Made by a program: the position numbers and the translations under genes. A DNA stretch of 33,296 bases, from contig JAUXWS010000030.1 of NCBI GenBank assembly GCA_030685015.1, positions 1-33,296 on the forward strand, given 5' to 3'. Below are positions 1,432-16,727 of this stretch, piece after piece; the first letter of the stretch is position 1; every line of letters starts with the position of its first letter. The notes beneath the pieces were generated by a model. It was not told the origin of the DNA and ran no database searches. It was given only the letters and a program-made list of their open reading frames with translations. Source of the DNA: a bacterium. GTDB taxonomy: Bacteria; CAIWAD01.

Positions 1432-2127
1432 TCAGAACCCCAGCAAGGGAGCCCACACCCGCGTCCAGAGCAGGACCAGGCCCAGACCGATGAGGAAGAT
1501 GGCCGTGGCGAGGCGCATCCACCGTTCAAGGGTGGTGGCCTGGGCGAAGAGGCGGCCGACGGCGCCGGCGCTCCAGGCCAGGACAATGGCGAAGAGAGCC
1601 ACGGGCAGGGCCGTGCCCAGGCCATAGATGAGCGGAACCAGGATCGGTTGGCCGGAGGCCACGCCCAGCGGCAGCAAGCTGCCAAAATAGAGGGCGGCGG
1701 AGACGGGGCAGAAGGCCAGGGCGAAGAGAAGGCCCATGGGCAGGGCGCTCCACAGCCCCCAGCGTTCCCGGCGACCTTGCCAGGCTTGGTCATCCCTGCC
1801 ACCGCCCAGGCTGGGAAGCGGCAGCCAGCCGAGCAGGGCCAGGCCGATCAGGACCAGCAGCGGCCCCAACAGAGGGCTGAGCACGGTCTGCAGCCAGCGC
1901 GACAGACCAGGCGCCGAGAGAATCCCGAATCCGAGCAGGGCGCCCAGGGCGACGTAGGCCAGGCTGCGCCCGGTCGCGTAGAGCAGTCCGCCTCCCAACA
2001 CGCGCAGGGGCTTGGCTTCGCGGCCCAGGAAACTGATGGCGGCCAGGTTGGAAGCCAGCGGACAGGGACTGATCGCCGTGAGCAGGCCCAGCCACAAGGC
2101 GCCACCCACCCAGCCGATCGTCTCCAT
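1432..2127 (-). CDS. arsG: ArsG-like aromatic arsenical efflux permease (CcdA/DsbD-type membrane protein)
   Basis: A 231-residue polytopic membrane protein with about six hydrophobic segments, of the DsbD/CcdA transmembrane type. A cysteine followed by proline occurs in the first helix (ISPCPLASN) and again in the fourth (AFCPVSAAL), the cysteine pair typical of this fold. Its position directly after ArsE- and ArsF-like genes matches the ArsEFG group, in which ArsG exports trivalent amino-aromatic arsenicals made from nitro-aromatic arsenicals. The start is either ATG 2127 or GTG 2130; both overlap the arsF stop (GTGATG), implying translational coupling. The family and position are seen; the transported substrate is inferred from the named family. 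A cytochrome c biogenesis CcdA role is the alternative but fits the neighbours less well. Confidence 0.8.
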   Translation of the reverse strand: METIGWVGGALWLGLLTAISPCPLASNLAAISFLGREAKPLRVLGGGLLYATGRSLAYVALGALLGFGILSAPGLSRWLQTVLSPLLGPLLVLIGLALLGWLPLPSLGGGRDDQAWQGRRERWGLWSALPMGLLFALAFCPVSAALYFGSLLPLGVASGQPILVPLIYGLGTALPVALFAIVLAWSAGAVGRLFAQATTLERWMRLATAIFLIGLGLVLLWTRVWAPLLGF

Positions 2128-2600
2128 CACTGGCCCCCGGCCAGGAAGGCCTGGGTTTCCTGGAAGACGTACTCACGGAAGCCGACTGGATCACGCACCA
2201 ATTCCCAGGTGCGGGGCAGCAGTTTCCAGCGCCCATAGGGGCCGCGATCATCCGTGAGGACCAGACAGGCGGAGACCAGGCCAAAATCCTCGGCATAATG
2301 CTCGTGGACCGGCTCATCCACGTTGAGGGAGGCGAACTGCAGGCTTCCCGCCTCGATCTGCCGCGCGAAATCCTCGCGGATGGCCCGGGCGGCCTGCTCC
2401 TCGATGGAATTGCAGGTCTCGCAGCGGAAGGTGCCGTGCAGGTAGAGCAGTTTGACCGATCCGGTCGGGCCCGCCACCGCCAGGGAATCCGCCGCCGCCA
2501 GCCTCCCGGTTTGGCGCCCCAGTTTCTGCAGGCCGAAAGCGCCCAGGCTGGCCACCACCGCCAGCAACAACAGGTTGCGTACAATCGTCTTGGTTGTCAT
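2127..2600 (-). CDS. arsF: ArsF-like nitroreductase subunit
   Basis: 157 residues. An N-terminal membrane anchor or signal (NLLLLAVVASLGAFGLQKL) is followed by a thioredoxin-like region with YLHGTFRCETCNSIEEQA, a CxxC motif directly after the first beta strand. This arrangement matches the family named ArsF, described as working with ArsE in reducing the nitro group of nitrophenyl arsenicals before export by ArsG. ATG at 2600 has GAGGAAACGGGAC upstream; the gene lies 13 bp after arsE and overlaps arsG. It probably acts at the membrane, possibly with its redox domain outside the cytoplasm. Anchor, CxxC and context are seen; the reaction is known only for the family. Confidence 0.8.
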   Translation of the reverse strand: MTTKTIVRNLLLLAVVASLGAFGLQKLGRQTGRLAAADSLAVAGPTGSVKLLYLHGTFRCETCNSIEEQAARAIREDFARQIEAGSLQFASLNVDEPVHEHYAEDFGLVSACLVLTDDRGPYGRWKLLPRTWELVRDPVGFREYVFQETQAFLAGGQ

Positions 2601-2613
2601 GTCCCGTTTCCTC

Positions 2614-2853
2614 TCATGCGTGGGTCGTCAGCAACTGATGCAACTCGGCCACGGTCGGAACCTTGCCGCTCAGCTTGACCTGGCCGTCGATGGCGAGGGC
2701 GGGCGTGCTCATCACGCCATAGCCCAGGATCTCCGTGATGTCCGTCACTTTGACCACCTCGATCTCCAGTCCGACGCCGCGCGCCGCCTCGCTGGTCCGC
2801 TCCGCCAGCAGCTTGCACTTGGGGCAGCCGCTTCCCAGAATCTGCACTCTCAT
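2614..2853 (-). CDS. arsE: ArsE-like small thioredoxin (redox-active disulfide protein)
   Basis: 79 residues beginning MRVQILGSGCPKCKLLAER, with the CPKC active-site motif right after the first strand and a later VMSTPALAIDGQV segment containing the cis-proline typical of thioredoxin folds. This is the small glutaredoxin-like family (TM0996/MTH895 type) that includes ArsE. It has no signal peptide, so it should be cytoplasmic. ATG at 2853 overlaps the stop of the preceding degraded frame (ATGA), and arsF follows after 13 bp. Together with arsF and arsG it forms the three-gene group linked to resistance to nitro-aromatic arsenicals. An upstream in-frame ATG at 2976 would add a low-complexity tail and is unlikely. 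Confidence 0.82.
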   Translation of the reverse strand: MRVQILGSGCPKCKLLAERTSEAARGVGLEIEVVKVTDITEILGYGVMSTPALAIDGQVKLSGKVPTVAELHQLLTTHA

Positions 2854-3130: not shown

Positions 3131-4306
3131 TCAAGCCACGCTTCCATAGATCAGACCGGCCACGGTGGACAAAGCCACGACCAGGCCGATGAAGACGACC
3201 GTTTTCTTCGTGCCCATCACGCTGCGGATGACCAGCATGCTGGGCAGCGAAAGCGCCGGGCCGGCCAGCAGCAAGGCCAGGGCCGGCCCCTTGCCCATGC
3301 CCGATTGCAGGAGGCCTTGCATGATGGGGACCTCGGTCAGGGTGGCGAAATACATGAAGGCGCCCACCACGGAGGCGAAGAGATTGGCCCAAAGCGAATT
3401 GCCTCCCACTGATTGCTGGATCCAGGCGTTGGGAATGAGACCCTTGTCCGTTCCGTCCGGCCCGCCCAGCAAGAGGCCGGCCACCAGCACGCCACCCAGC
3501 AACAGGGGTAGGATCAGCTTGGCGTATTCCCAGCTGGAGTCCACCCAGGCGCTCAGTTCGTCCTTGCGGAACCAGGAGATCAGGGTGGCCCCCAGACCGA
3601 GGAGGAGAACCCCGGTGATCACCCATTTGACGGAGTGGATCGCGGCCCATGGTCCAGTCTCGCCCGCCATGGGCCGGCCCCAGTTGGCGAAGACGAGGAT
3701 GCCCACCATGGCGGCGAAATAGAGGCCGTCCTGCCACAGGCGCCTGTCCTTGGCGTCGTCGGGGAGGATGACCGGACCCTCCGCCTGGCGCGCCTCCTCC
3801 TCCCGGCGGAAGATGACGTGCATGAGCAGGCCGATCACGACGGAGAAGACGATGGCGCCCACGGCGCGGGCAAGGCCCAGGCCGGGACCCAGGATGCGGG
3901 CGGTGAGGATGATGGCCAGGACGTTGATCGCCGGCCCGGAGTAAAGGAAGGCGGTGGCCGGACCGAGACCGGCGCCGCGCTTGTGGATGCTGGCGAAGAG
4001 CGGCAGGATCGTGCAGGAGCAGACGGCCAGGATGGTGCCCGAGACGGCGGCGACGGGATAGGCGATCCGCTTGCTGGCCTGCGGGCCGAGGTGTTTCATG
4101 ACGGCGCCCTGGCTGACGAAGACACTGATGGCACCGGCGATGAGGAAGGCGGGGATGAGGCAGAGGAGCACGTGCTCCTGGGCGTACCACCTCACCAGCG
4201 CGAAGCTTTCCCGCAGGGCGCTCCACAGGCGCTCGCTCTCCACCGGCAGGAACCAGCAACCGGCGAAGACGAGCAGGATGAGGAGCAGCTTGGTGCGCTC
4301 TTTCAC
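3131..4306 (-). CDS. arsP: ArsP/DUF318-family membrane permease
   Basis: 391 residues with about ten hydrophobic helices. The conserved block AVCSCTILPLFASIHKRGAG followed by GPAINVLAIILTARILGPGL is typical of the predicted permease family (PF03773) that includes ArsP, an exporter of trivalent organoarsenicals. A second repeat-like block (FATLTEVPIMQGLLQSGMGK) lies near the C-terminus. The chosen start is GTG at 4306, with GGGGG about eight bases upstream; longer in-frame starts would run through the palindrome at 4331-4352. The gene follows arsR by 67 bp and leads the arsE-F-G group. Efflux of arsenicals is inferred from the family and operon. Other members of this broad family have no known substrate. 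Confidence 0.8.
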   Translation of the reverse strand: MKERTKLLLILLVFAGCWFLPVESERLWSALRESFALVRWYAQEHVLLCLIPAFLIAGAISVFVSQGAVMKHLGPQASKRIAYPVAAVSGTILAVCSCTILPLFASIHKRGAGLGPATAFLYSGPAINVLAIILTARILGPGLGLARAVGAIVFSVVIGLLMHVIFRREEEARQAEGPVILPDDAKDRRLWQDGLYFAAMVGILVFANWGRPMAGETGPWAAIHSVKWVITGVLLLGLGATLISWFRKDELSAWVDSSWEYAKLILPLLLGGVLVAGLLLGGPDGTDKGLIPNAWIQQSVGGNSLWANLFASVVGAFMYFATLTEVPIMQGLLQSGMGKGPALALLLAGPALSLPSMLVIRSVMGTKKTVVFIGLVVALSTVAGLIYGSVA

Positions 4307-4373: not shown

Positions 4374-4670
4374 CTACCGCAGTTCGTGCAGAACCTGGGT
4401 CGCGCAGGAGAAGAAGTTGAGCACGCAAGGCGTGAGCAGCCGGTAGTAGACGGTTGTCCCCTCGCGCCGGTCCTGGACGATGCCGTGGGCGCGCAGCAAG
4501 GCCAGGTGCTTGGAGACGGTGGTGCGGTCACAGCCAAGCAGTCCGGTCAATTCACCCACCGAGCATTCGCCATGGGAGAGGCGGTCCACGATCATCAAGC
4601 GGCTCTCATTGGCCAGGGCTTTCAGCACCACGGCCTGTTGCCGGAAGACATTGCTGGCGCAAGCCGTCAC
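4374..4670 (-). CDS. arsR: ArsR/SmtB-family metalloregulator (operon 1)
   Basis: 98 residues, a normal length for a winged-helix ArsR repressor. The recognition region is VGELTGLLGCDRTTVSKHL, with the wing REGTTVYYRL after it. Candidate thiolate ligands for As(III) are Cys36 and Cys47 around the DNA-binding domain and the C-terminal pair in TPCVLNFFSCA (Cys82, Cys89); the C-terminal pair resembles the site of ArsR proteins with ligands after the wing. The start is GTG 4670, preceded by GGAGG with a five-base spacer; an upstream ATG at 4721 would extend through the dyad at 4694-4715 and is rejected. It is the first gene of the ars operon and most likely represses it until arsenite or an organoarsenical binds. 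Confidence 0.88.
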   Translation of the reverse strand: MTACASNVFRQQAVVLKALANESRLMIVDRLSHGECSVGELTGLLGCDRTTVSKHLALLRAHGIVQDRREGTTVYYRLLTPCVLNFFSCATQVLHELR

Positions 4671-4693
4671 GGATACCTCCAAATTGGCGGCCA

Positions 4694-4715
4694 ATATGTG
4701 GCAAGGTGGCCATAT
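4694..4715 (-). promoter_or_regulatory. Candidate ArsR operator/promoter upstream of arsR
   Basis: An AT-flanked element, ATATG at one end and CATAT at the other, enclosing GCAAGGTGGCC. It shares the core AAGGTGGCCA with the palindrome at 4331-4352. The AT-rich edge stands out in this GC-rich DNA and could overlap the -10 region of the arsR promoter, but no convincing -35 box was found. Confidence 0.45.
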
Positions 4716-4745
4716 AATCAAGTGGGCACGATGATGGGGGCTGGG

Positions 4746-5417
4746 TCAATGCCGGCAGCGGCCATCCACCAGGTGCAGGCGCTGCCTGCCGATGGTCGCG
4801 GCCTCCGGACTGTGGGTGACCATGATGACCGTGCGACCCTCCTGCTGGTTGAGAGCCTTCAGGATGCCCAGCACCTCGCGACTGAGGGCGGGGTCCAGAT
4901 TGCCCGTGGGTTCGTCGGCCAGGATGACCTCGGGGTCATTGACCAGGGCGCGGGCAATGGCCACGCGCTGCTGCTGCCCCACGGACAGCTCGCGCGGCAG
5001 GTGCTCGGCCCGGTCGCCCAATCCCAACTGGTCCAGCAGGCCGAGCGCCCGCTGCTCGGTGGCGGTTCTGCCCTTCCGACCATTGGCCAGCAGCATGGGC
5101 ACCATCACGTTCTGCAGGGCGCTCAGGTAGGGCACCAGGTGAAAGCTCTGCAGCACGAAGCCCACGTTCCGGTTGCGGAAGTGAGCCAGCTTCCGGCTTC
5201 CCGAGAAAGCCAGCTCCTCGCCCTTGAAGCGGATGCTGCCGGAGCTTGGCCGGATCATCCCGCCCAGGGTCAGCAGCAGGGTCGTCTTGCCGGAGCCGGA
5301 TGGCCCCGTGATGGTCATCAGCTCGCCGGCCTCGATCGTGAGGGAGATCTCGTCCAGCGCTTTCACCAGCCCTCGCCGGCTGGTGTAGGTCTTGTTGATT
5401 CGTTCCAGTGTGAACAC
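4746..5417 (-). CDS. ABC transporter ATP-binding protein, MacB/LolD type
   Basis: 223 residues with a complete nucleotide-binding domain: Walker A GPSGSGKTT, Q-loop FVLQSFHLVPY, signature LSVGQQQR (valine in the third position, seen in some members of this group), Walker B VILADEPTGNLD, and the switch histidine in MVTHSPEA. It belongs to the class that powers FtsX/MacB-type permeases, which drive periplasmic extrusion rather than import. The start is GTG 5417, with AGGAG eight bases upstream, two bases after the permease stop; a longer frame runs back into the permease gene and is a shadow. It is the last gene of the arsR2 - thioredoxin-like - permease - ATPase operon. The cargo is unknown. 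Confidence 0.88.
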   Translation of the reverse strand: MFTLERINKTYTSRRGLVKALDEISLTIEAGELMTITGPSGSGKTTLLLTLGGMIRPSSGSIRFKGEELAFSGSRKLAHFRNRNVGFVLQSFHLVPYLSALQNVMVPMLLANGRKGRTATEQRALGLLDQLGLGDRAEHLPRELSVGQQQRVAIARALVNDPEVILADEPTGNLDPALSREVLGILKALNQQEGRTVIMVTHSPEAATIGRQRLHLVDGRCRH

Positions 5418-5419
5418 GA

Positions 5420-6640
5420 TCAAAGCTCCTGCAGGATGCTGGCGGGATCCAGGCGCGCCGCGCGACGGGTGGGACACCAGCTGCCCAGCAGCGAGATGAG
5501 GACGGAAAGGCCCAGCGCGAGCGGCAGCAGGGACCAGACCGGATCCACCCGCAGCTTGGCCAGTTCCGGTCCGATGACCATGGCCGCGCCCGTGCCCAGC
5601 ACGAAGCCGCAGAGGCCTCCCAGCAGCCCCAACACCGTGGCCTTGCCCATGAAGAGCCGGTAGATGACGCGGCGTGGGGCGCCCAGGGTGAGCAGGGTGC
5701 CGATCTCGCGGCGCCGCTCCTCCACATTGGACCACATGTAGTTGGCGATGGTCAGCGAGCCCACCAGGCCGATCAGCACCAGCAGCAGGCGGGACACGCT
5801 GGCCATCAACCGGTTGGTCTCGACCTGGGTGCTGACGATCTGCCCGATGGTGGTGATGCGCGTGTCCGGCAGGATGTTGCGCAGCTTGCCGAGCAGCCCG
5901 TCGGAGATGGCCGAGCAGCAGCCCATGATCTCCACGGCGCTCACCTGTCCCTGGATGCCGAGCAGGGCCTGCACCTCGTGCAGGTGGGCGAAGACGCGGC
6001 TGTCGTCCACCGTGCCCGTTGCCGCGATCACCCGGGCCACCGTGAAGGAGCGGCCTTCCAGCGTCAAGCTGCCGCCCTCCTGCAGGGCCAGGCGTTCCGC
6101 CACGGTCGCTCCCGCCAGGACCTCGTCCGGACCGAGGGACTCCACCGATTTGCGCTGCAGTCTCTCGTCCAGCAGGGCGCTGGGCTTGGTGATTTCCGGG
6201 CTGGTGCCGCAAGTGGCGGCCAGCTCGCTGCCGCTGATGCCGGAACTCTGCCAGATGGGCTTGGCCGCCAGCTCGTTGGCGGGCAGGATGCCGGTGAGGA
6301 TGACCGCCTGGCCGTCCACCTTGATGCGCCGGGTGAGCTTGGGCGAGAGATTGTCCACGCCGGGCAGGGCGGAGGTGGCGATGCGCTCCACATATTCCTC
6401 GGGGAAGGTGGGGGCGTCGATGTCCGCCGCGTAGTAGTCGTCCACGCTGGCCGCCTGGGGCAGCACCAGGATGTTGGCGCCCAGGTTGTCCAGCTTGAGT
6501 TGCACCGCCCGCTCGGAGACCGCCGAGACCGATTTGAGCCCGACGATCATGGCGATGCCCAGGGTGATGGCCAGCAAGCCGGAGAGGAGCCGCGACTTGC
6601 GCAGCAAGAGCTCCTTCCAGAGGATCGTGTTCAGCGTCAT
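5420..6640 (-). CDS. FtsX/MacB-type ABC permease with periplasmic cysteines
   Basis: 406 residues. One N-terminal helix (residues 18-38) is followed by a large extracytoplasmic domain of about 240 residues (MacB-PCD-like), then three C-terminal helices with the ERRREIGTLLTLGAPRR coupling motif, the classical FtsX layout. The periplasmic domain carries Cys144 (AATCGTSP) and a vicinal pair Cys241-Cys242 (EIMGCCSAI). Cysteines are unusual in this domain family and may bind a thiophilic ligand such as arsenite or another soft metal; that is inference. The gene starts six bases after the thioredoxin-like frame and is followed after two bases by its ATPase. A lipoprotein or peptide exporter is the alternative. 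Confidence 0.85.
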   Translation of the reverse strand: MTLNTILWKELLLRKSRLLSGLLAITLGIAMIVGLKSVSAVSERAVQLKLDNLGANILVLPQAASVDDYYAADIDAPTFPEEYVERIATSALPGVDNLSPKLTRRIKVDGQAVILTGILPANELAAKPIWQSSGISGSELAATCGTSPEITKPSALLDERLQRKSVESLGPDEVLAGATVAERLALQEGGSLTLEGRSFTVARVIAATGTVDDSRVFAHLHEVQALLGIQGQVSAVEIMGCCSAISDGLLGKLRNILPDTRITTIGQIVSTQVETNRLMASVSRLLLVLIGLVGSLTIANYMWSNVEERRREIGTLLTLGAPRRVIYRLFMGKATVLGLLGGLCGFVLGTGAAMVIGPELAKLRVDPVWSLLPLALGLSVLISLLGSWCPTRRAARLDPASILQEL

Positions 6641-6646
6641 GCCGGG

Positions 6647-7399
6647 CTACTTCGCGGGACCGCAGGAGGAGGCGCCGCCCTGGACGGAGGGCGGACAGCA
6701 GCCGCCCGCCTTCTTGGAGGCGTCCTGCACCAGCTTGGCCACGTCCACGTCGCTCCCGTAGCTTCCCGTCACCTGACCCTGGGCGTTGACCACCAGGGTC
6801 ACGGGCGTGGTCGAGTCGCGGTCGATCTTGAGTTGATCCAGGAAGGCGCGCTCCCGGGGGTCATCCAGATCCACCTTGACCGTGACGGGTTTGCCCTGCA
6901 ACTGGCTGCAGGCCGTTTCGCAGGCGCTCATGGCCTTGGGCACATCCCTCATGCCCTTGCGGCTGGCCACCACATAGACCGGCTGCTTGTCCTGGACGGC
7001 CTTGAGAATGGAGGCCTTGGCCGGGCTGGGCACCATGGCCGACAGGTTGTCGGCGCTTGCTTTGGCCGCCTCGACTCCTCCGGCCACCACACCGTTGCGC
7101 CCGGCCACCAGGATCAGCGGCACCGGGGCCGTCGCCACGCGCAGCTTCGCCACCAGCGCGGCGTTGGCCGGATCCTGGCGGTCCACCTCCACCATGATGG
7201 AATTGGCGGTCTGCTACATGGCCGTCTGGATGGTCTCGCGGGCGCCGTCCAGTCCCTGCGTGCCGGCGTCCTTGATCAAGAGGAAGGCCGCCTGGCCCTT
7301 CCGGGCCGCCTTGTCCAACTCCGCCAGGGGCGCCGCGAGCAGGGAAGCCGTCAGCAGGAGGACTGCCGCCAGGGCGAGTCCGGTCGTGCGCGTGGTCAT
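6647..7399 (-). pseudogene. Exported thioredoxin-like protein, interrupted by an in-frame TAG
   Basis: The frame starts at ATG 7399 (GGAGG five bases upstream) with a signal peptide (LALAAVLLLTASLLAAPLAEL), and stops at a TAG codon (7214-7216) after 61 residues. The same frame continues past the stop without a shift to 6647, giving QTANSIMVEVDRQDPANAALV and a thioredoxin-fold body. Total length would be 250 codons. The C-terminus is cysteine-rich (GGCCPPSVQ, then SSCGPAK), and an internal SACETACSQ is present. The second half could start at ATG 7195 but would then lack a signal peptide. It is either a recently inactivated gene, a suppressible amber codon, or a sequencing error. Its operon with arsR2 and an exporter suggests a periplasmic thiol carrier. 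Confidence 0.7.
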
Positions 7400-7455
7400 G
7401 GGGTCCTCCGGGGTGTGGCCTCGATCCTTTGGGAATCGCGGCGGGAAAGGTCCAC

Positions 7456-7824
7456 TCAGCGGGGGCAGCAGCCCCCTGTCGTTTTCAAATCAAGCAGGCG
7501 CTGGCCGTCAGCGGCCGCCTCGGGCACCAGGGACCGGCTTTGGAGCAAGGCCGGCAGCAGGAGACGGGGGCCGACCGACCCGTCATTTGCCAGCCGGTAG
7601 TAGCGCCAGAGGCCACTGCGCCGCATCTGCACGAGCCCGGCGCGACTCAGGTAGCCCAGGTGCTGGGAAACCTTGGCCTGCGGCAGCATCAGGGCCCGTA
7701 CGATGTCGCCCACGCACATTTCGCCCTCGGCCAGCAGGAACAGGATCCGGAGCCTTATTCTCTCGCTCAAGGCGCGGAAGATCCGTTCGAGAGGTTGTTC
7801 GGCGGGATCCTGTCTTGAATTCAT
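7456..7824 (-). CDS. ArsR-family regulator with C-terminal Cys-Cys (operon 2)
   Basis: 122 residues with an ArsR winged helix: ALSERIRLRILFLLAEGEMC, recognition helix MLPQAKVSQHLGYL and wing RRSGLWRYYRL. Cys37 lies next to the DNA-binding helices, and the protein ends GGCCPR with vicinal Cys119-Cys120, a likely thiolate site for As(III) or a similar soft metal. The start is ATG 7824, the only suitable one. No Shine-Dalgarno sequence precedes it, and the promoter at 7832-7859 places transcription start at or next to the ATG, so the mRNA may be leaderless. It heads the operon with the thioredoxin-like gene and the ABC exporter, and is divergent from the sensor gene at 7882. Confidence 0.85.
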   Translation of the reverse strand: MNSRQDPAEQPLERIFRALSERIRLRILFLLAEGEMCVGDIVRALMLPQAKVSQHLGYLSRAGLVQMRRSGLWRYYRLANDGSVGPRLLLPALLQSRSLVPEAAADGQRLLDLKTTGGCCPR

Positions 7825-7831
7825 GCGGGCG

Positions 7832-7859
7832 AATATAGAGCTTTGCCCCAGCTTGTCAA
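7832..7859 (-). promoter_or_regulatory. Sigma-70-type promoter of arsR2 with overlapping dyad
   Basis: Read on the minus strand: -35 TTGACA (7854-7859, perfect consensus), 16-base spacer, -10 TATATT (7832-7837). The expected start point is about 7825, one base from the arsR2 ATG. A 5-1-5 dyad, GCTTGTCAAGC (7851-7861), overlaps the -35 box and is a good candidate operator for the ArsR2 repressor. Confidence 0.7.
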
Positions 7860-7881
7860 GCATCAAACATGGAGGCGCCGG

Positions 7882-8855
7882 GTGATCCCCACCCGTCCAT
7901 CCCAGGCTCAGCAGGGGGAGTTGGCCGCCGACCGGCGCGGACGGCCCGTCGCGCGCCTGGGCCGGCCCTGCCTGCCCCTCCTCTGCGTGCTGCTGGCCTG
8001 CGCGCCGGATCGGGAAGAGCGCGTGCCGCTGGACTTCACCCAGCTGGATGCCGTGGTGGAAGCCGCCCCGACGGACTTGGTGCTGCGGGTGGCGGTCTCC
8101 GCCATGACCAGTCCCCAGGAGACCTTCCACCTGTACAATGACCTGATGGACCACATCGGAAAGCGCACGGGGCGTCGCATCCAGTTCGTGCAGCGCCGGA
8201 CCTATGCCGAGGTGAACGACCTGCTCCTGCGCGACGAGCTGGACCTGGCCTTCATCTGCACCGGGGCCTGGGTGGATCTGGAACCCAGCGGACAGGTGGA
8301 GCTGCTGGCCGTGCCCCAGATCCGCGGCCAGGCCACCTATCGAAGCTACCTGGTGGTACCGCGGGATTCCCCCGCCGCGGCCCTGCAGGATTTCTCCCGG
8401 GCCCGCTTCGCCTTCACGGACAGCCTGTCACTCACCGGCTGCTGGCACGTGCGGGACGCGCTGGCCCGGCGGGGCCTGCGTCCGGAGGTCTATTTCAGCA
8501 CCTGGTCTACACCCATGGCCATGACCGCTCCATCCGGGCCGTGGCGGAAGGTCTGGTGGACGGTGCCTGCGTGGACGGGTTGATCTACGACTACCTCCTG
8601 TGGCGCGCCCCCGCCTCCGTCGCCGGTCTGCGGGTGGCGGAGCGCAGCGCACCCTTTGGCATGCCGCCGCTGGTGGTGCCCGCCCGGCTGGACCCCCGCC
8701 TGCGACGGCAGCTGGCGGACGTGCTCTTCCACATGCACGAGGAGGAGGGGGGACGGCGCCTGCTGGACTCCCTGCTCATCGACCGCTTCATCCCGGCCGC
8801 GGACACGCTCTACCGCTCGGTGCGCGGCCTGCGCCTCCACCGGCTGCAGCCATGA
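7882..8855 (+). pseudogene. PhnD-like periplasmic binding lipoprotein (AioX/ArxX type), one frameshift
   Basis: The start is GTG 7882 with GGAGG six bases upstream. A hydrophobic segment ends in a lipobox (CVLLAC, Cys40), so the protein should be a lipoprotein. The body is a phosphate/phosphonate-binding-type domain (LRVAVSAMTSPQETFHLYND, then DELDLAFICTGAW). The frame breaks near 8499-8501: up to there it reads PEVYFS, and the continuation LVYTHGHDRSIRAVAEGLVD is in the next frame, ending at 8855. Restoring one base gives about 325 residues, a usual length. The stop overlaps the kinase start (ATGA). In AioXSR and ArxXSR a protein of this type senses arsenite for the kinase. Cys126 in the binding region could be compared with the As(III)-binding cysteine of AioX. 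The frameshift may be a sequencing error. Confidence 0.72.
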
Positions 8856-10342
8856 ACGGGGGAGAACTCCGCCTCGCCCGGGGTCCGTTGTGGTGGTACA
8901 GCCGGCGCTTCCCTGTGCCCATCCGCGTCAAGCTGCTGGTGCCCATGCTGGGTCTGATCCTGGTGTTCGGTGTTGTCCACGTGCTGGTCATCAACCGGCT
9001 GGTCTTCCATTCCCTGGAGCGTGAATACATCCGCAACAGCGTGGTGGCGGCCCGCGTGCTGTCCGCCCGCCTGGAGGAGGCTCTGCTTTACGGGGACCGC
9101 AACGAGGTGATCACCCAGCTGTGGGAGTGGAAACAGCTGGATGCGGAGCATGCCTACGCCTTCATCGTGGACAGCCGGGAACGGGTGACGGCCTCCACCT
9201 TTCCCCGGGAACTGCCCCGGGGGCTGGCCGCCCTCCAGTCGCCGGGCAACGGGAAGCCGGCCGTTCGGCGGATCCTGGACCGGCGCGAGCCGCTCATCGA
9301 CGTGGCCATTCCTCTGGTGCAGGGCGGCGCTGGATGGCTGCGCCTGGGTTTCCGCGAGGATCCCGTCGTGCTGCCGGCCCGGCGCGTGGCCTGGTTGGCC
9401 TTGTCGATGGTGGGCGTGTTCGTGCTGCTGGGCCTGGCGGGGGCTTGGGTCTTCAGTCACCTGTTCACCGCCCCCATCGGCCAGCTGTTGGAGAGAACGG
9501 CCGCGGTCAACCTGGACGGCCCGCCTGTGCGGCTGGATCTGCGGACGGGGGACGAATGGCAGGAGCTGGCCACCGCCTTCGAGGGCATGACCGATCGCCT
9601 GCAGGACAGCCACCGCGAGCTGGCCCAGGCCATCCGCCGGGCCTCGGAGGCGGAGCGCATGGCCTCGCTGGGCCTGATGGCAGCCGGCGTGGCCCACGAG
9701 ATCTCCAATCCGGTGGCGGGCGTCGAACTGGGCCTGAAGCGCATCGAGAAACGGCCCGAGGACGTGGCGCAGATGGCCAAGTACCTGCCACGCATGCTGA
9801 ACAGCATCGCCCATGTGCAGGAGATCGTGCGCGAGATGCTGGCCTTCGCCCGGCCCGACCAGCCCGCCCTGGGGTTGGTGGATCCGCGGGAGCTGATCAA
9901 CCAGACCTTGATCCTGCTCGCCCATCGCCTGGAGGAGGGGCGCGTCACGCTGACCCAGGAGCACGAGGGGGGCGACCTGCGCCTGATGGCGGATCCCCAG
10001 CAACTGCGGCAGGTGCTGGTCAACCTGCTGGGCAACGCCCTGGACGCCATGCCGGAGGGCGGCTCCCTCCTCCTGGGCACCCGGCGACGGGGCTCCGAGC
10101 TGGAGATCCGCATCCGCGACTCGGGGAGCGGCATGTCCCCCGCCGTGCTGGAGCGCATGTGGGAGCCCTTCTTCACCACCAAGCCGGTGGGCCGCGGCAC
10201 GGGCCTGGGGCTGGCCGTGACTCGTACCCTGGTGGCCCGCCACCAGGGCCGCATCGAGGTGGAGAGCCGGGTGGGCCTGGGCACGACCTTCACTCTGTCA
10301 TTTCCCTTGGAGGGGCCGCGTGAACCGCTTGCTGCTGATTGA
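8852..10342 (+). CDS. Membrane sensor histidine kinase (AioS/ArxS-like)
   Basis: 496 residues: transmembrane helix 1 (about 27-49), a periplasmic sensing region of some 125 residues, helix 2 (about 178-203), HAMP linker, then HisKA with the phospho-acceptor His282 in GVAHEISNPVAGVELGL and an HATPase domain (LLGNALDAM, DSGSGMS, GRGTGLGLAV). It is preceded by the PhnD-like lipoprotein with an ATGA overlap and overlaps the response-regulator gene by 23 bp, so the three are one translational unit. By analogy with AioS/ArxS, the lipoprotein would present a ligand to the periplasmic domain and the kinase would phosphorylate the NtrC-type regulator. The exact stimulus is inferred only from that analogy. 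Confidence 0.87.
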   Translation: MNGGELRLARGPLWWYSRRFPVPIRVKLLVPMLGLILVFGVVHVLVINRLVFHSLEREYIRNSVVAARVLSARLEEALLYGDRNEVITQLWEWKQLDAEHAYAFIVDSRERVTASTFPRELPRGLAALQSPGNGKPAVRRILDRREPLIDVAIPLVQGGAGWLRLGFREDPVVLPARRVAWLALSMVGVFVLLGLAGAWVFSHLFTAPIGQLLERTAAVNLDGPPVRLDLRTGDEWQELATAFEGMTDRLQDSHRELAQAIRRASEAERMASLGLMAAGVAHEISNPVAGVELGLKRIEKRPEDVAQMAKYLPRMLNSIAHVQEIVREMLAFARPDQPALGLVDPRELINQTLILLAHRLEEGRVTLTQEHEGGDLRLMADPQQLRQVLVNLLGNALDAMPEGGSLLLGTRRRGSELEIRIRDSGSGMSPAVLERMWEPFFTTKPVGRGTGLGLAVTRTLVARHQGRIEVESRVGLGTTFTLSFPLEGPREPLAAD

Positions 10343-11672
10343 GGACGAGGAAAGCCTGCGCACGGCCCTGGCCGACGACCTGCGCGAGGAGGGATTCCAG
10401 GTGGAGGAGGCGGGCAGCGGGGAGGAGGCGCTCGCCCTCGCCTCCCGGACCAGGTTCCAGGCGGTGGTCACCGACCTGAACCTGCCCGGCGAGCTGAGCG
10501 GCCTGGACCTGGTGGAGCGGTTGAAGGGGGAGGATCCGGCCTGCGCCCTGATCATGATCACGGCCTATGGTTCGGTCAAGACGGCCGTGGAGGCCATGAA
10601 ACGGGGGGCGGACGACTACCTGACCAAGCCCTTCCAGCCCGAGGAGCTGATCCTCGTCCTGCGTCGCGCCCTCAAGCTGGCGCAGCTGGAGGAGGAGAAC
10701 GCCGGTCTGCGGCGCCGCCTGGGGGAGGAAACCCGTTTCGACCGCTTCGTGGGCGTCTCCCCCCAGGCGCGGCAGATCCGCCAGCTGCTGCAGGTGATCG
10801 CCCCCACCGAGGAGGTGGTGCTGATCGAGGGCGAGACGGGCACGGGCAAGGAGCTGGTGGCCCAGGCCATCCACGAGCACTCGCCCCGGCGGGCAGGGCC
10901 CTATGTGGCGGTCAGTTGCGCCTCGCTGTCCGATGGCCTGCTGGAAAGCGAGCTGTTCGGGCATGAGAAGGGCGCTTTCACCGGGGCCGTGCAGCGCAAG
11001 GTCGGCCGCATTGAAAGCGCCGCGGGCGGTACCCTGCTGCTGGACGAGGTGGACGACACTCCGCTGGCCCTGCAGGTCAAGCTGCTGCGTCTGTTGCAGG
11101 AGAGGGAGTTCCAGCGGGTCGGCAGCTCGCAGACCCTGCGCGCCGACGTGCGCGTGCTGGCCGCCACCAAGCGGGACCTGTCGGAGCTGGTGGAGGCGGG
11201 GCGCTTCCGCGGCGACCTCTTTTACCGGCTGCAAGTCATTCCCGTCCACCTGCCGCCCCTGCGCCGTCGTTCCGAGGACGTGCCCGTGCTCCTCGACTTC
11301 TTCATGGACAAGCACGCCGCCGGGGCGCCCAAACCTGTCCTTGGCCCGGCCGCCCTGACCCGCCTCACCTCCTACAGCTGGCCGGGCAACGTGCGTCAGT
11401 TGGAGAACCTCGTCCGCCGCCTGCTCGTCCTCTCTTCGGGCGGATCCGTGACGGAGGACATGTTGCCGATGGAGGTGGCGACCGCCTCCTTCCCCGGTCC
11501 ACCCGAGGGCGAGATCCTGGACTTCCGCCAGCGCATGAGCGACTTCGAGCGAAGCCTGCTGGAGACCGCCCTGGCGCAGGCCGGAGGGAACAAGACGCAG
11601 GCCGCCGAGCGCCTGGGGATGAGGCCCAGCACCTTCCGCGATCGATTGGGCCGCCATTTCCCGGATCTTTGA
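10320..11672 (+). CDS. NtrC-type sigma-54 response regulator (AioR/ArxR-like)
   Basis: 450 residues, full NtrC layout. Receiver domain with Asp52 (VVTDLNLPG) and the KPF lysine at about residue 103; AAA+ domain with Walker A GETGTGKE (171-178), the GAFTGA sigma-54 contact loop intact in GHEKGAFTGAVQRK, Walker B TLLLDEVDD and SWPGNVRQLENL; C-terminal Fis-type helix-turn-helix (GGNKTQAAERLGMRPSTFRD). It starts with GTG inside the kinase gene. It should activate promoters of the -24/-12 class, and one lies at 14541-14557 in front of the oxidoreductase operon. Target assignment is inference from proximity; the domain reading is direct. Confidence 0.92.
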   Translation: MNRLLLIEDEESLRTALADDLREEGFQVEEAGSGEEALALASRTRFQAVVTDLNLPGELSGLDLVERLKGEDPACALIMITAYGSVKTAVEAMKRGADDYLTKPFQPEELILVLRRALKLAQLEEENAGLRRRLGEETRFDRFVGVSPQARQIRQLLQVIAPTEEVVLIEGETGTGKELVAQAIHEHSPRRAGPYVAVSCASLSDGLLESELFGHEKGAFTGAVQRKVGRIESAAGGTLLLDEVDDTPLALQVKLLRLLQEREFQRVGSSQTLRADVRVLAATKRDLSELVEAGRFRGDLFYRLQVIPVHLPPLRRRSEDVPVLLDFFMDKHAAGAPKPVLGPAALTRLTSYSWPGNVRQLENLVRRLLVLSSGGSVTEDMLPMEVATASFPGPPEGEILDFRQRMSDFERSLLETALAQAGGNKTQAAERLGMRPSTFRDRLGRHFPDL

Positions 11673-11695
11673 CCCGTGAGAGGAGGGGAGCCTGC

Positions 11696-12538
11696 ATGAT
11701 GCGAGAACCTTGGAATGTTCTGATGGCGATCCTGCTGCTGGCCATCCCGGCCGCGGCCCGCAGCCTGCTGGTCTACGCCGGAGCCGCCGCCAAGCCGCCC
11801 CTCGAGGAGATCGCCCGCGCCTACGAGGAGGAGTGCGGCGTGCGCGTCGATCTCGTCCTGGGGGGCTCCGGCCACGTCCTGGCTCAGATGCGGCTGACCG
11901 GGCGGGGCGATCTCTATCTCCCCGGCTCCTCGGATTACATGGAGCTGGCCAAGCGCCAGGGACTGGTGCGCCCGGAAACGGAGCGGCCGGTGGTCTACCT
12001 GGTGCCCGCCATCAACGTGCGCAAGGGAAATCCCCGTGGGATCCGCACCCTGCACGACCTGACGCGGCCCGGACTGCGCGTCGCCATCGCCAATCCGGAG
12101 GGCGTCTGCCTGGGGGCCTATGCGGTGGAGATCGTGACGGGCCAGCTGGACGCGGCCGGACAAGCCGCCTTCCGGCGCAACCTGGTCAACTACACCGAAT
12201 CCTGCGAGAAGACGGCCACGGCCATCTCCCTGGGCATGGTGGACGCCGTCCTGGGCTGGAGCGTCTTCCAGCACTGGGACTCCACGCGGATCGAGTCCCT
12301 TCCCCTGGATCCCGGGCAGGTGGCGCGGGTGGGAACCATACCCATCGCCCTCTCCACCTGCACGCGCGACGCCGCCGCGGCGCAGCGCTTCCTCGATTTC
12401 GTGACGGGACCGGCGGGGCGGGAGATCTTCGCCCGCCACCGCTACTTCGCCACACCGGAGGCGGCCTTTCGCTGGCTGGGGGCGGTCAGGCCGGTGGGAG
12501 GCGAGTTCGCGGTGCCGGCCGACTGGCTGGCACCATGA
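11696..12538 (+). CDS. modA: Molybdate-type ABC transporter substrate-binding protein
   Basis: 280 residues. Signal peptide (VLMAILLLAIPAAARS), then a type-2 periplasmic binding fold beginning LLVYAGAAAKPPLEEIARAY, with GSGHVLAQMRLTGRGDLYLPG, the serine/glycine-rich oxyanion-binding region of ModA/WtpA proteins. The start is ATG 11696 with GAGGGGAG upstream. It follows the response regulator by 23 bp and overlaps modB (ATGA). Because a molybdenum enzyme operon follows, molybdate is the most likely cargo. Tungstate or another oxyanion cannot be excluded from the sequence alone. Confidence 0.8.
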   Translation: MMREPWNVLMAILLLAIPAAARSLLVYAGAAAKPPLEEIARAYEEECGVRVDLVLGGSGHVLAQMRLTGRGDLYLPGSSDYMELAKRQGLVRPETERPVVYLVPAINVRKGNPRGIRTLHDLTRPGLRVAIANPEGVCLGAYAVEIVTGQLDAAGQAAFRRNLVNYTESCEKTATAISLGMVDAVLGWSVFQHWDSTRIESLPLDPGQVARVGTIPIALSTCTRDAAAAQRFLDFVTGPAGREIFARHRYFATPEAAFRWLGAVRPVGGEFAVPADWLAP

Positions 12539-13311
12539 CCGGGCGGCGCCCCACCATCCTGGCCGCCCTGGCCGTGCTGGGCATCTACGGCGCCCTGCTC
12601 CTCTCCCTGGCCTGGTTCGTCGAGCCGGCCGCCCTGGGAGCCATGCTGACCAGCCCGCGCGTCTGGTTCTCCCTGCGCCTCTCACTCGCGGCGGCCACCC
12701 TGGCCAGCGCGCTGGCTCTCCTGCTGGCCCTTCCCGCCGCCTATGCCCTCTCCCGCCACCGCTTCCGCGGGCAGGGGGCGGTGGAGACCGTGCTCGAGTT
12801 TCCCCTCATCGTCTCCCCGGCGGCCCTGGGCGCCGCCCTGCTCATTTTCTTCGCCAACCCGCTGGGCGCCTGGTTGCAGGAACACACCCTCCATGTCGTC
12901 TTCACCTTCGCCGGCGTCGTGTTGGCCCAGTTCGTCACCATCCTCGGCGTGGCCGTGCGCATGCTCAAGGTCGCCTTCGACGAGGTGCCGCCCGAGCTGG
13001 AGACGGTGGCGCGCAGCCTGGGCGCCTGTCCGCGTCATATCTTTCGCACGGTGACCCTCCCCCTGGCCCGGCGCGGCCTGGTGGCCTCCCTTGTCCTGGT
13101 CTGGGCCAAGGCCCTGGGCGAATTCGGGGCGACCCTGATGGTGGCCGGATCCATGGCCATGCGCACCGAGACCCTGCCCATCGCCATTTTCATGCGCCTC
13201 TCGACGGCGGACATCGAGGGCACGGTCGCCCTCATCCTGCTCCTGGTCTGCCTGGGCCTGGGCGCCCTTCACATGGCGCGGCGCCTGCTGAGGAGTCCGG
13301 GCCATGCTTGA
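12535..13311 (+). CDS. modB: Molybdate-type ABC transporter permease
   Basis: 258 residues with five to six membrane helices. The EAA-type coupling loop reads ARSLGACPRHIFRTVTLPLA and is followed by AKALGEFGATLMVAGSMAMR, a block typical of ModB/CysT-type oxyanion permeases. ATG 12535 overlaps the modA stop, and its end overlaps the start of the ATP-binding gene by eight bases, indicating one coupled transporter operon. It would form the inner-membrane channel for molybdate entry. Sulfate permeases share the fold, but the single-permease arrangement favours molybdate or tungstate. Confidence 0.85.
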   Translation: MTGRRPTILAALAVLGIYGALLLSLAWFVEPAALGAMLTSPRVWFSLRLSLAAATLASALALLLALPAAYALSRHRFRGQGAVETVLEFPLIVSPAALGAALLIFFANPLGAWLQEHTLHVVFTFAGVVLAQFVTILGVAVRMLKVAFDEVPPELETVARSLGACPRHIFRTVTLPLARRGLVASLVLVWAKALGEFGATLMVAGSMAMRTETLPIAIFMRLSTADIEGTVALILLLVCLGLGALHMARRLLRSPGHA

Positions 13312-14404
13312 GATCGACGGCCTGGAAGTGCGGTCGGGAGACTTCGTCCTGCGGGACATCCACCTGCGGGTCGAGGAGGGAAGCTGTCATGCCGTGCTGG
13401 GCCCCTCCGGCAGCGGCAAGAGCACGCTGATCCGGGCGCTGCTGGGCGCCCTGCCCGTCGACCGGGGCGCCATCCGCCTGGCCGGGGCCGAATTGGGGCG
13501 TCGGCCCATGGAGGAGCGCCGCTTGGGCTATGTGCCGCAGCAGCTGGGCCTCTTCCCCCACCTCACGGTGCGCGACAACCTGCTCTTCGGCCTGCGCGCC
13601 CAGGGGCTGCCCCTCGCCCCGGCCAAGCCCCACGTGGACCGCCTGATCGAGATCACGGGAATCGGCGCCCTGCTTGAGCGCCGTCCCGACACGCTCTCCG
13701 GCGGCGAGCGCCAGCGCGTGGCGCTGGCCCGCGCCCTGGCCCCCCAGCCACGCGCCGTGCTGCTGGACGAGCCCTTCAGCGCCCTCGACACCAGCTTGCG
13801 CCGCGAGCTGGGCCGCCTGGTGATGGACCTGCAGGAGCGCCAGGGATTGACCGTCCTCCTTGTCACCCATGACCTGGAGGAGGCCTTCCTGTTGGCCGAC
13901 CAGGTGACCGTCCTGATCGAAGGAAGGCAGGAGCAAAGTGGCGTGAAGGGACAGGTCTACCGCCAGCCGGCCAGCTTGGCCGTGGCGCGTTTCCTGGGCT
14001 TGCGCAACCTCTACGAGGCCCGCGTGCTGTCCGCCGGTGACGGCCGGATGCGGGCGGCCTGTCCCGCCCTGGGCACGGAGCTGCAGCTGGCGCAAGGACA
14101 GGCCGATGGGCGACCCGCCCCGGCGCCGGGCGCCATCATTCTTCTGGGCATCCGTCCCGAACAGGTGAACCTGCGCGACGAGGACCATCCAGCGCGAGGA
14201 GAGGAATGTGTGCTGGTCGGACGCGTCCACCTGCTGGATCGCGGCGAGAGCGTCCTGCTCTCCTTCATCGACGAGCGCGCCGGCACGGCGGTGGAGGTGG
14301 TGGCCTCCCATCGGCTGGTGGAGCGTTTCGCCCTGCACGACGGGGCGGGCCCGGTTCGCATCGGGATTGATCCGGCCTCTCTCTTCTGGGTGCCCCGCCC
14401 CTGA
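13304..14404 (+). CDS. modC: Molybdate-type ABC transporter ATP-binding protein
   Basis: 366 residues. N-terminal nucleotide-binding domain with Walker A GPSGSGKST, Q-loop GYVPQQLGLF, signature LSGGERQRVALARAL, Walker B AVLLDEPFSALD and the switch histidine in LVTHDLEEA. A C-terminal region of about 120 residues (ILLGIRPEQVNLRDE onward) resembles the TOBE/Mop oxyanion-binding domains of ModC. It completes the ModABC importer and is the last gene before a 246-bp gap that contains the sigma-54 promoter. Import of molybdate would supply the molybdopterin cofactor of the oxidoreductase encoded downstream. Confidence 0.87.
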   Translation: MLEIDGLEVRSGDFVLRDIHLRVEEGSCHAVLGPSGSGKSTLIRALLGALPVDRGAIRLAGAELGRRPMEERRLGYVPQQLGLFPHLTVRDNLLFGLRAQGLPLAPAKPHVDRLIEITGIGALLERRPDTLSGGERQRVALARALAPQPRAVLLDEPFSALDTSLRRELGRLVMDLQERQGLTVLLVTHDLEEAFLLADQVTVLIEGRQEQSGVKGQVYRQPASLAVARFLGLRNLYEARVLSAGDGRMRAACPALGTELQLAQGQADGRPAPAPGAIILLGIRPEQVNLRDEDHPARGEECVLVGRVHLLDRGESVLLSFIDERAGTAVEVVASHRLVERFALHDGAGPVRIGIDPASLFWVPRP

Positions 14405-14557: not shown

Positions 14558-14580
14558 TTGTCAGGGCCCATGGCCAGATG

Positions 14581-14604
14581 GCTCCCTTCTCCAAAGAAGG
14601 GGGC
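14581..14604 (+). other. Hairpin in the leader of the oxidoreductase mRNA
   Basis: GCTCCCTTCT pairs with AGAAGGGGGC (ten pairs, one G-U) around a CCAA loop. It lies inside the predicted leader, between the expected start point and the ribosome binding site. There is no T-tract, so it is not a standard terminator. It may stabilise the mRNA or serve post-transcriptional control; no known riboswitch was recognised. Confidence 0.45.
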
Positions 14605-14650
14605 CGATCGTCTCGTCCCAAACCAACCAGGATCAGGAATCGAGGTCCAC

Positions 14651-15562
14651 ATGAAGGAAGATCAGCACAGCAGGTCCACGTTGGAGCAGACGGGCCTGGG
14701 CCGCCGGGACTTTCTGCGTGGCGCGGCCCTGGCCGTGGGGAGCGCCGCCGCTTCCGTGGCCGCGGTCACCCTCGCCCGCCATGCCGATCCCCCCGCCACG
14801 CCGTCCGGGCCGGACACCGTGCGGGAGATCCCGGAGCTGGCCAGCGTGGCGCGGGGCGAGGGGGCGGACATCCTGGTGCGCATGCAGGACGAGCTGCGCA
14901 AGGCCCTGGCCAAGCCCATGGAGGAGCGCCGCTGGGCCTTGGTGATCGACACCCGCAAGTGCGTGGGTTGTCACGCCTGCACGGTGGCCTGCGTGGCGGA
15001 GAACAAGCTGCCGCCAGGCGTGGTTTACCGGCCGGTCATCACGGAGGAGAAGGGCGCCTATCCCAACCTGTTGATGCGCTTCTTCCCCCGGCCCTGCATG
15101 CAGTGCGACAAACCATCCTGCACCTCGGTCTGCCCGGTGAACGCCACCTGGAAGCGCAAGGACGGAGTGGTCGCCGTCGACTACGACAAATGCATCGGCT
15201 GCCGCTATTGCCTCTCCGCCTGTCCCTACGGGGCCCGCACCAGCGATTTCGGACACACCTACACCGGGGAGACGCCGGTGCCCCAGCTCTACGAGGAGCG
15301 CCCCAGCCACGAGTACGGCAAGGCCTGGTCCCGGCAGGGCCACGGCTCGCCCAAGGGCAATGCGCGCAAATGCCACTTCTGCCTGCACCGTTTGCAGGAG
15401 GGCGAATTGCCCATGTGCGTGACCACCTGCATCGGACGCGCCAACTACTTCGGCGATGCCGGCGACACCGCCAGCCTGGTGGCCGAGCAGCTCCGGCAGC
15501 ACAACCAGATCAAGCTGCTGGAGGAGAAGGGCACGCATCCGGCCGTCACTTACCTGATTTGA
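14651..15562 (+). CDS. Four-cluster iron-sulfur subunit of a membrane molybdoenzyme (TtrB/PsrB-like)
   Basis: 303 residues. A Tat signal (GRRDFLRG, residues 17-24) marks export of the folded protein. Four cysteine groups each suit a [4Fe-4S] cluster: 104/107/110/114, 149/152/157/161, 181/184/187/191 and 241/244/256/260. This is the electron-transfer subunit of PsrB/TtrB/PhsB-type oxidoreductases. ATG 14651 is chosen because GAGG lies five bases upstream and the Tat motif is then close to the N-terminus; the earlier ATG 14558 lies within the sigma-54 promoter region. It is the first gene of a B-C-A operon, the order known for ttrBCA and srdBCA. It would pass electrons between the quinone-linked membrane subunit and the catalytic subunit. 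Confidence 0.88.
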
Positions 15563-15569
15563 GGGAAGC

Positions 15570-16727
15570 ATGAAAAAGAAAACCCTTCGCCTGCTGTCCC
15601 GCTTGTGGGCCGCGGCCTTCCTCCTGGGGCTGGCGGCGCTGGTGGCCAAGTTCGCCACGGGCGAGCGCCTTGCCGGCTACGGCAGCTATGTGCCCTGGGG
15701 CTTGTGGGTCGCCCTGTACTTCCATTTCGTGGGCATCGCCGGCGGCGTCTTCGTCGCGGGCATGACCGGCTACTTCCTGGGGCTGCCCCACTTCCGGGAG
15801 CATCTGCGGGTCATCATGCTGGTCTCCACCGTGGCGGTGGTCACCGGCCTCTTCTCCATCTGGCTGGATCTGGGGCAACCCTTCCGCGCCTATCGCATGA
15901 TCTTCGCCCCCAACTTCGGCAGCATGATGGCCTTCAACGCCTGGATGTACTCCTTCTTCCTGGCCGTGGTGGCCGTCTGTTTCCACCTCAGCTACCAGAA
16001 GGCCAGCCAGGAGGACGTGAACGACCGCAGCGGCTGGCTGGCCCCGCTGCTGATGGCGGCCCTCCTCCTCTCCATCGCCTACCCCAGCCAGAGCGGCGCC
16101 TTCTTCGGCGTGGTGGACGCCAAACCCTTCTGGAGTTCGGCTCTCCTTCCCATCCTGTTCCTGGGATCCGCCGTCACGTCCGGCGCCGCCGTGCTGCTGC
16201 TGCTTTTCACCTTCCTGCTGCGGGAGGAGGCCGACATCCGCCAGCAACCCTTGCGCCTGCTGCGCCGCATGACCCTGGGCGGCATGGCCTTCTACTTCCT
16301 GGCCGAGTTCGCCGAGTACTCCATCGTCTATTGGTCGCCCATCTCGCACAATCGGGAGGCGGTCGACCTCGTCATCTTCGGCCCCTTCTGGTGGGTCTTC
16401 TGGCTGGTCCACCTGGGCGGCGCCCTGGTGGCGGCCTTCCTGATGATGAGGGGACGCAGCCTGCCGGCGGTGGGCACGGGCGCCTTCCTCGTGGCCGTCA
16501 CCTTCGTCTCGGCCCGCCTCAACATCCTGATCCCCGGCCAGGCCGTGGCTGAGTTGAAGGGCTTGAATGAGGCCTACACCCACGTCCGACTCAGCCACCA
16601 CTACCAGGCCACCTGGAACGAGTATCTCGTCGCGCTCTTCATCGGCGCCTTCGGCGTGGGGCTGGTGGTCCTTGGTCTCAAGCTGCTCGCCCGCCATTCC
16701 ATGAAGAAGATCGGAGCCGCCCTATGA
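15570..16727 (+). CDS. NrfD/PsrC/TtrC-family quinone-interacting membrane subunit
   Basis: 385 residues with nine to ten hydrophobic helices. Blocks such as YVPWGLWVALYFHFVGIAGG, SIWLDLGQPFRAYRMIF and PFWWVFWLVHLGGALVAAFL are characteristic of the NrfD family, which oxidises or reduces quinol and anchors the iron-sulfur subunit. It has no heme-binding pattern. ATG 15570 follows the B gene by seven bases with GAGGGAAGC upstream, and the stop overlaps the catalytic-subunit start (ATGA). It completes the membrane arm of the B-C-A complex, linking the quinone pool to periplasmic chemistry. Confidence 0.9.
   Translation: MKKKTLRLLSRLWAAAFLLGLAALVAKFATGERLAGYGSYVPWGLWVALYFHFVGIAGGVFVAGMTGYFLGLPHFREHLRVIMLVSTVAVVTGLFSIWLDLGQPFRAYRMIFAPNFGSMMAFNAWMYSFFLAVVAVCFHLSYQKASQEDVNDRSGWLAPLLMAALLLSIAYPSQSGAFFGVVDAKPFWSSALLPILFLGSAVTSGAAVLLLLFTFLLREEADIRQQPLRLLRRMTLGGMAFYFLAEFAEYSIVYWSPISHNREAVDLVIFGPFWWVFWLVHLGGALVAAFLMMRGRSLPAVGTGAFLVAVTFVSARLNILIPGQAVAELKGLNEAYTHVRLSHHYQATWNEYLVALFIGAFGVGLVVLGLKLLARHSMKKIGAAL

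Follow-up and report, generated by a model that had tools for sequence, protein, structure and literature searches.

An unnamed carrier-ABC transporter operon with invariant periplasmic cysteines, associated with arsenic and heavy-metal genes, and its proposed role in soft metal(loid) expulsion

A stretch of 33,296 nucleotides from a bacterium of the lineage CAIWAD01 (GenBank assembly GCA_030685015.1, contig JAUXWS010000030.1, positions 1 to 33,296 of the forward strand; hereafter the window, meaning the whole stretch) carries, beside arsenic (ars) genes, an operon for an exported, cysteine-tailed carrier and for the permease and ATPase of an ATP-binding cassette (ABC) transporter. This module is unnamed: neither a Pfam or NCBIfam family nor a description in the literature was found for it, in line with the original prediction, made from the letters of the window, that the gene set may be undescribed. 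We report here the operon, its conserved cysteines, the predicted folds of its products and its genomic association with arsenic and heavy-metal genes. On balance these observations point to a module that handles soft metal(loid)s outside the inner membrane, by ATP-driven expulsion; metal binding, the identity of the ligand, the direction of export and the hand-over from carrier to exporter are what we infer from them. The module is a unit worth naming for genes that lack a curated family model and occur in about one tenth of the sampled Planctomycetota genomes. If the proposed role is correct, defence against arsenic and heavy metals includes an ATP-driven periplasmic step, with its own carrier, after the inner-membrane pumps.

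In the window the genes lie on the minus strand (7824-4746), followed by a second ars unit. In the order of transcription they are:

7456..7824, minus strand: ArsR1, ArsR/SmtB-family regulator of 122 aa (HTH_5, 1.3e-14; NF033788, 89 bits, cut-off 55)
6647..7399, minus strand: exported carrier with two predicted thioredoxin folds lacking CxxC and a C-terminal cysteine tail (assigned from the frame and homologues)
5420..6640, minus strand: MacB/LolC-type (type VII ABC) permease with Cys144, Cys241 and Cys242 (PF02687, PF12704 and fold search)
4746..5417, minus strand: ABC ATPase of the LolD/MacB type, GTG start (PF00005, ABC_tran, 4.7e-34)

The regulator, carrier, permease and ATPase, with the cysteines listed for them in the original prediction, are thus all present. 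Only 6 bp separate the carrier from the permease and 2 bp the permease from the ATPase. ArsR1 ends in TTGGCCPR, and the ATPase scored 216 bits against the LolD model, below the cut-off of 308. The frame of the carrier contains an in-frame TAG at codon 62 (7216-7214) and is otherwise unbroken from the signal peptide to the cysteine tail. The genome encodes SelB and the tRNA for selenocysteine (tRNA-Sec). Recoding of this stop was nevertheless ruled out, because the codon is TAG and the site lies outside the conserved positions, where residues differ widely among homologues. It may be a real break, or a sequence error or misreading; the set in the window is therefore possibly dead, and the local copy may not work.

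The window permease matched FtsX (PF02687; 74.6 bits, gathering threshold 25.5) and MacB_PCD (PF12704; 43.2 bits, gathering threshold 27), and fold searches with a structural model of mean pLDDT (predicted local distance difference test) 74 placed it with LolCDE, MacB and HrtBA (Foldseek: LolE, 2.6e-17; MacB, 9.9e-16). It scored far below the cut-offs of the LolC/E equivalog (61 bits, cut-off 362) and of the MacB model (49 bits, cut-off 966). The protein has five cysteines only. Homology to MacB and LolC/E places three of them, Cys144 and the vicinal Cys241-Cys242 (in VEIMGCCSAI), between the first and second transmembrane segments, in the predicted periplasmic domain. These three were invariant in 43/43 aligned permeases, which share 35-99% identity, and Cys144 alone is invariant in the otherwise variable loop (131-168) that runs between W130 and L169. 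Since the periplasmic cysteines of the window permease are exactly the invariant ones, the cysteines are more than a product of chance. A further pair, DPCxC, was seen at the C-terminal end of many permeases (e.g., LDPCICFREV in locus L020), with cysteine at positions 400 and 402 in 31/43 and 23/43 rows, respectively.

The carrier of the window, whose C-terminus reads ...GGCCPPSVQGGASSCGPAK (GGCC...SSCG), had no Pfam or NCBIfam family above cut-off and no match in the PDB, and no relatives of carriers were found in plasmids, viral contigs or the PDB. A C-terminal cluster of three or four cysteines is present in 42 of 44 carriers, in forms as varied as KCCDDPNCKH, SCGVEGCKHCK, CCPGGKCG and GCGGGCGPSGCG. 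The conservation across homologues that the original prediction proposed to check was therefore found in both proteins. The AlphaFold model of the Blastopirellula marina carrier (L020) consists of two thioredoxin folds with a disordered tail, and Foldseek grouped it with protein disulfide oxidoreductase and protein disulfide isomerase (PDO/PDI) proteins. The predicted thioredoxin fold is thus common to the carriers and the thioredoxin/PDI oxidoreductases, whereas the CxxC active site of the latter was not found between signal peptide and tail in any of the 44 carriers. Homology of the carrier to ArsF was considered and was unsupported (hhalign probability 0.6%).

Relatives of the permease were first sought with a permease motif, in a single scan of ~85,000 species genomes. 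The scan was steered by artificial alignment rows built on real permease motifs and samples only relatives with [FY]AHLH[DE]VQ; each match held up in a tblastn comparison with the actual protein of the window, and the artificial rows were used nowhere else. The close relatives were from a Phycisphaerae metagenome-assembled genome (MAG; 48% identity) and B. marina (41%), both with a carrier homologue immediately upstream and an ATPase immediately downstream of the permease; more distant ones were 25-33% identical. A carrier profile then matched 40 of 392 sampled Planctomycetota genomes, and all 40 retrieved loci had permease and ATPase genes alongside. Conversely, a permease profile found 42 permeases in 37 of the 392 genomes, all of them adjacent to a carrier; the three genomes with a carrier match only gave weak matches. 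Because each search always finds the other partner adjacent, the core of the module is an obligate operon of three genes: carrier, permease and ATPase. The original prediction had proposed a four-gene set, and here it has to be amended, since an ArsR gene adjoins the module in only 7 of 43 loci (the window, L019, L075, L087, L096, L104 and L108). Taxon sampling covered Planctomycetota and one other large phylum, and the MAG contigs are short. The module was not found in four other genomes of the phylum of the window, and no carrier was found in 396 sampled genomes of the phylum of an Aminicenantes relative, a sample with no internal positive control; viral contigs yielded no permease relatives. 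Small cysteine-rich proteins of ~150 aa lie near many modules (upstream in L082, L084, L085, L088, L089 and L091-L093; also L020:8506-8976 and L069-L074).

The two carriers that lack a cysteine tail form a tandem pair in one genome (G291, locus L087). Both have a TGA codon exactly at the position of a tail cysteine of their relatives, after which the conserved tail continues in frame (SGSG-U-GGGGCAPAGCK beside SSGCG-GGCGPSGCGPRK). In a second genome (G286, locus L148), the permease, which lies outside the 43-row alignment, has a TGA at the codon of Cys241 (EVVG-U-CKEI) and then normal family sequence to its end; the tail of its carrier also has a TGA, which could be an ordinary stop. The in-frame TGA sites, at cysteine positions of the G286 permease, of both tandem carriers and of an OsmC-like gene in G291, are:

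L148:1021-1029 and 1865-1867 (G286)
L087:5591-5593, 6433-6435 and 2137-2139 (G291)

It is likely that the G286 permease and the G291 carriers contain selenocysteine and are new selenoproteins, because both genomes encode SelB above cut-off. The tRNA-Sec was present in G291 and was not found in the fragmented genome G286. The OsmC-like gene with an in-frame TGA lies in the arsenic operon of G291 and likewise probably encodes a new selenoprotein; an OsmC-related selenoprotein model matched it weakly, below cut-off. Hairpins after the UGA codons had z-scores of -1.1 to -2.8 against shuffled sequences, not clearly beyond them, and no selenocysteine insertion sequence (SECIS) of Rfam matched. Apparent internal stops in several carriers were rejected as recoding, being mostly the genes' own terminal stops, past which the query profile had run; only in G291 and G286, at UGA codons, does conserved sequence follow the stop. 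The apparent replacement of exactly these cysteines by selenocysteine is strong evidence that they perform chemistry or bind a ligand, and such natural swaps at predicted ligand positions open the mechanism to direct testing.

The neighbourhoods of the module are enriched in certain metal genes. Heavy-metal resistance-nodulation-division (RND) genes occur in 16 of 42 Planctomycetota loci (20 genes, compared with 1.7 expected from genome density), and ACR3 in 4 of 42 (0.07 expected; P = 8e-7); the P values presume independence and are optimistic, since related loci have neighbours in common. Neighbours were assigned via similarity to a few reference genes, an approach that could overlook further metal genes. 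Arsenic islands were recognized at five loci, namely the window and the following:

L075: ArsE, ArsF, ArsG, ArsR and ACR3
L087 (G291): ArsC, ArsM, ACR3 and ArsR
L096: ArsM, ArsA, ArsC, ACR3 and an ArsR ending in SGGCCEP
L101: an ArsE-like match and ACR3

The ArsR of L096, within a full ars operon, is a homologue of ArsR1 and has its SGGCCEP at the matching place. The regulators adjacent to the module carry either a CxC at the place of the R773 type or vicinal cysteines near the C-terminus. The latter resemble Type 2 ArsR, which uses Cys95-Cys96-Cys102 in AfArsR, or SpArsR, which responds to methylarsenite, MAs(III), and lacks the third cysteine (PMC11868830). In the permease tree, arsenic-linked rows are spread over three separate lineages, with RND-linked rows mainly in one later group. 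For the arsenic-linked lineages, that of the window included, As(III) or a trivalent organoarsenical is the most likely ligand; for the RND-linked ones we infer another soft metal. It might be argued that the arsenic association is incidental and that the set in the window is a decaying hitch-hiker, given the TAG in the carrier, the broken state of PhnD-like and TolC-like genes nearby and the absence of the module from the other genomes of the phylum. This explanation is very improbable, as four other genomes, in separate lineages, have the module next to arsenic genes, and the enrichment of ACR3 is hard to reconcile with it.

A sister family (L021-L035, from Armatimonadota and Aminicenantes MAGs; 25-33% relatives), likewise unnamed, mostly has the order two-domain partner, permease, ATPase. 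Its partner and the carrier are homologues (hhalign probability 94%, E 2e-7, 199 columns, terminal cysteines aligned); the partner starts with CPYSIRDAGF, has an invariant CxC and ends in a hydrophobic segment (e.g., L021:1046-2263). In both the partner and the permease of this family, CxC takes the place of the CC of the main family, and the permease has no counterpart of Cys144. The parallel change is suggestive of a ligand or a contact shared by the two proteins. A shared ligand predicts such a CC to CxC change, and a cysteine-to-UGA change at both sites, as seen. The sister-family loci often adjoin large pyrroloquinoline quinone (PQQ)-like repeat proteins.

How might expulsion work? The exported carrier, lacking a redox CxxC, would bind a thiophilic ion in the periplasm through its cysteine tail and would dock on a homodimeric type VII ABC transporter, at its periplasmic domain. 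There Cys144, Cys241 and Cys242 would form a second thiolate site that receives the ion from the carrier. MacB and LolCDE use ATP hydrolysis to move periplasmic domains, and ATP hydrolysis in the cytoplasm could likewise be passed mechanically to the periplasmic domains here, so that the ion is released outward, from the carrier or the periplasm, and reaches an RND/TolC pump or the medium. ACR3, ArsP and ArsG would bring the arsenic ligand into the periplasm. To our knowledge, type VII ABC transporters have no membrane path for small ions. In its full form, a periplasmic relay in which As(III) or a similar ion moves by thiolate or selenolate from a redox-dead thioredoxin-fold carrier to a mechanotransmitting ABC transporter, by which the bare metal(loid) is ejected, the model is tentative, and we hold it with distinctly less confidence than the general role.

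Several observations weigh against a role in metal(loid) expulsion. The loop of Cys144 has a pLDDT below 50 in the structural models, and because these fail to place Cys144, the three-thiolate site is a guess. In 20 of 42 Planctomycetota loci no metal gene was seen in the stretch read, and a whole clade lies in housekeeping surroundings; the association with metal genes in other genomes foreseen by the original prediction therefore holds for the ACR3 and RND enrichment and the arsenic islands, and not for these loci. Neither the neighbourhood survey nor the cysteine check, both of which that prediction had put forward as possible refutations, overturned it. In the sister-family loci no metal genes were seen, while the architecture is kept. 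A permease on the Pelobacter plasmid pPRO1, 28-31% identical and with a cysteine at the corresponding place, lies next to genes for a DUF2318 protein and for a protein with a heavy-metal-associated domain, and this makes uptake possible. Finally, no MacA-like adaptor was found among the recurring neighbours as a regular member of the module.

The sister family without metal genes would suit a role in thiol-disulfide or envelope maintenance, in which the ABC transporter works mechanically to release, secrete or refold the carrier or metal-damaged periplasmic proteins, with disulfides between carrier and permease and no metal site. The tandem thioredoxin folds resemble PDO/PDI, the permease fold is that of LolCDE, MacB and FtsEX, and redox sites also typically carry cysteine or selenocysteine pairs. 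We nonetheless regard this role as unlikely, for no carrier domain has a CxxC active site, the module is enriched near ACR3 and RND pumps, and ArsR-type regulators and arsenic operons accompany it.

The neighbours of the pPRO1 permease raise the alternative of metal acquisition, with the cysteine sites holding inbound Cu(I) or Fe. DUF2318 belongs to iron/copper uptake systems, and half of the module loci lie outside resistance islands. A precedent is the Campylobacter jejuni locus Cj1658-p19-Cj1660-1665, annotated as an Fe2+ ABC transporter with periplasmic thioredoxins (PMC6338021). This P19 system and the module, compared via the literature and not by sequence, have in common an FtsX-type permease, an ATPase, periplasmic thioredoxin-like proteins and a link to metal. 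They differ in that systems of the P19/pPRO1 type have two permeases, DUF2318, P19 and FTR1 and serve iron uptake. DUF2318, P19 and FTR1 were not seen in the minus-strand unit of the window or among recurring neighbours, nor in the loci read, where single-locus neighbours were read by eye only. Moreover, the recurring neighbours are efflux and detoxification genes (ACR3, ArsC, ArsM and RND pumps), and the structurally closest type VII permeases work outward or on the periplasm. Acquisition is hence also an improbable explanation.

MacAB-TolC exports periplasmic polypeptides, and by analogy the permease could secrete the metal-loaded carrier as a disposable scavenger. The carrier does have a signal peptide and a cysteine tail, the permease has the MacB fold, and TolC/RND genes are close to many loci; against this, the adaptor is not a regular part of the set and the carrier has no feature that marks a secreted substrate, so that we give the idea little credence. 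The module shares with LolCDE and MacAB the permease fold, the FtsX and MacB_PCD domains, a LolD-like ATPase and a periplasmic partner. It departs from them in its invariant periplasmic cysteine triad, in having a cysteine-tailed thioredoxin-fold partner instead of LolA or MacA, and in its occurrence in metal islands; unlike in MacAB-TolC, ATPase and permease are encoded by separate genes and not by a fused MacB.

Returning to expulsion, some ars efflux transporters share islands with the module, and we know of no MacB/LolCDE-type ABC transporter among the ars efflux proteins of a published list. That list comprises ACR3, ArsB, ArsG, ArsJ, ArsK, ArsP, ArsQ and ArsW (PMC9144182). The selenocysteine-assisted organometal (SAO)/Tso systems of Haft and colleagues are selenoprotein systems for metal(loid)s (PMC13188914), and like the module they have ABC transporter parts, an ArsR-type regulator and cysteine/selenocysteine pairs. 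Membership in SAO/Tso was rejected, as no Sao or Tso model matches the carrier or the permease and ArsR1 scored 45.6 bits against TsoR (cut-off 115). The closest functional analogue of the module is the Campylobacter P19 locus and the closest conceptual one is SAO/Tso; on the criteria examined, it belongs to neither.

Downstream of the module, the window contains the following ars genes:

4374..4721, minus strand: ArsR2, second ArsR-family regulator, of the neighbouring ars unit (NF033788, 86.6 bits)
3131..4303, minus strand: ArsP_1 family permease (PF03773, 4.2e-75)
2614..2853, minus strand: ArsE/MTH895-type thioredoxin-like protein (TIGR00412, 103 bits, cut-off 62)
2127..2600, minus strand: ArsF-family protein (NF040494, 86 bits, cut-off 60)
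1432..2130, minus strand: ArsG-family efflux permease (NF040495, 245 bits, cut-off 200)

At 1084-1383 an apparent start of a TolC-type gene was noted by eye; its frame is not continued and it had no Pfam match. Divergent from ArsR1, at 7843-11672, are genes for a PhnD-like binding protein, with an apparent frame shift near 8541-8583, an AtoS-like kinase and a sigma-54 response regulator, an order that we take to resemble AioX-AioS-AioR. With the stop in the carrier, the PhnD-like and TolC-type genes make three broken genes inside 8 kb, owing to decay or to assembly errors. A ModA-like/ABC transporter set (11669-14404) adjoins genes for an Fe-S subunit with a twin-arginine translocation (TAT) signal, NrfD and a TtrA-like molybdoenzyme (14558-19969). 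The molybdoenzyme scored 451 bits against TtrA and 106 bits against ArrA, both below cut-off, and this set may encode a respiratory enzyme that acts on an oxyanion of a metalloid or of sulfur, beside the arsenic genes.

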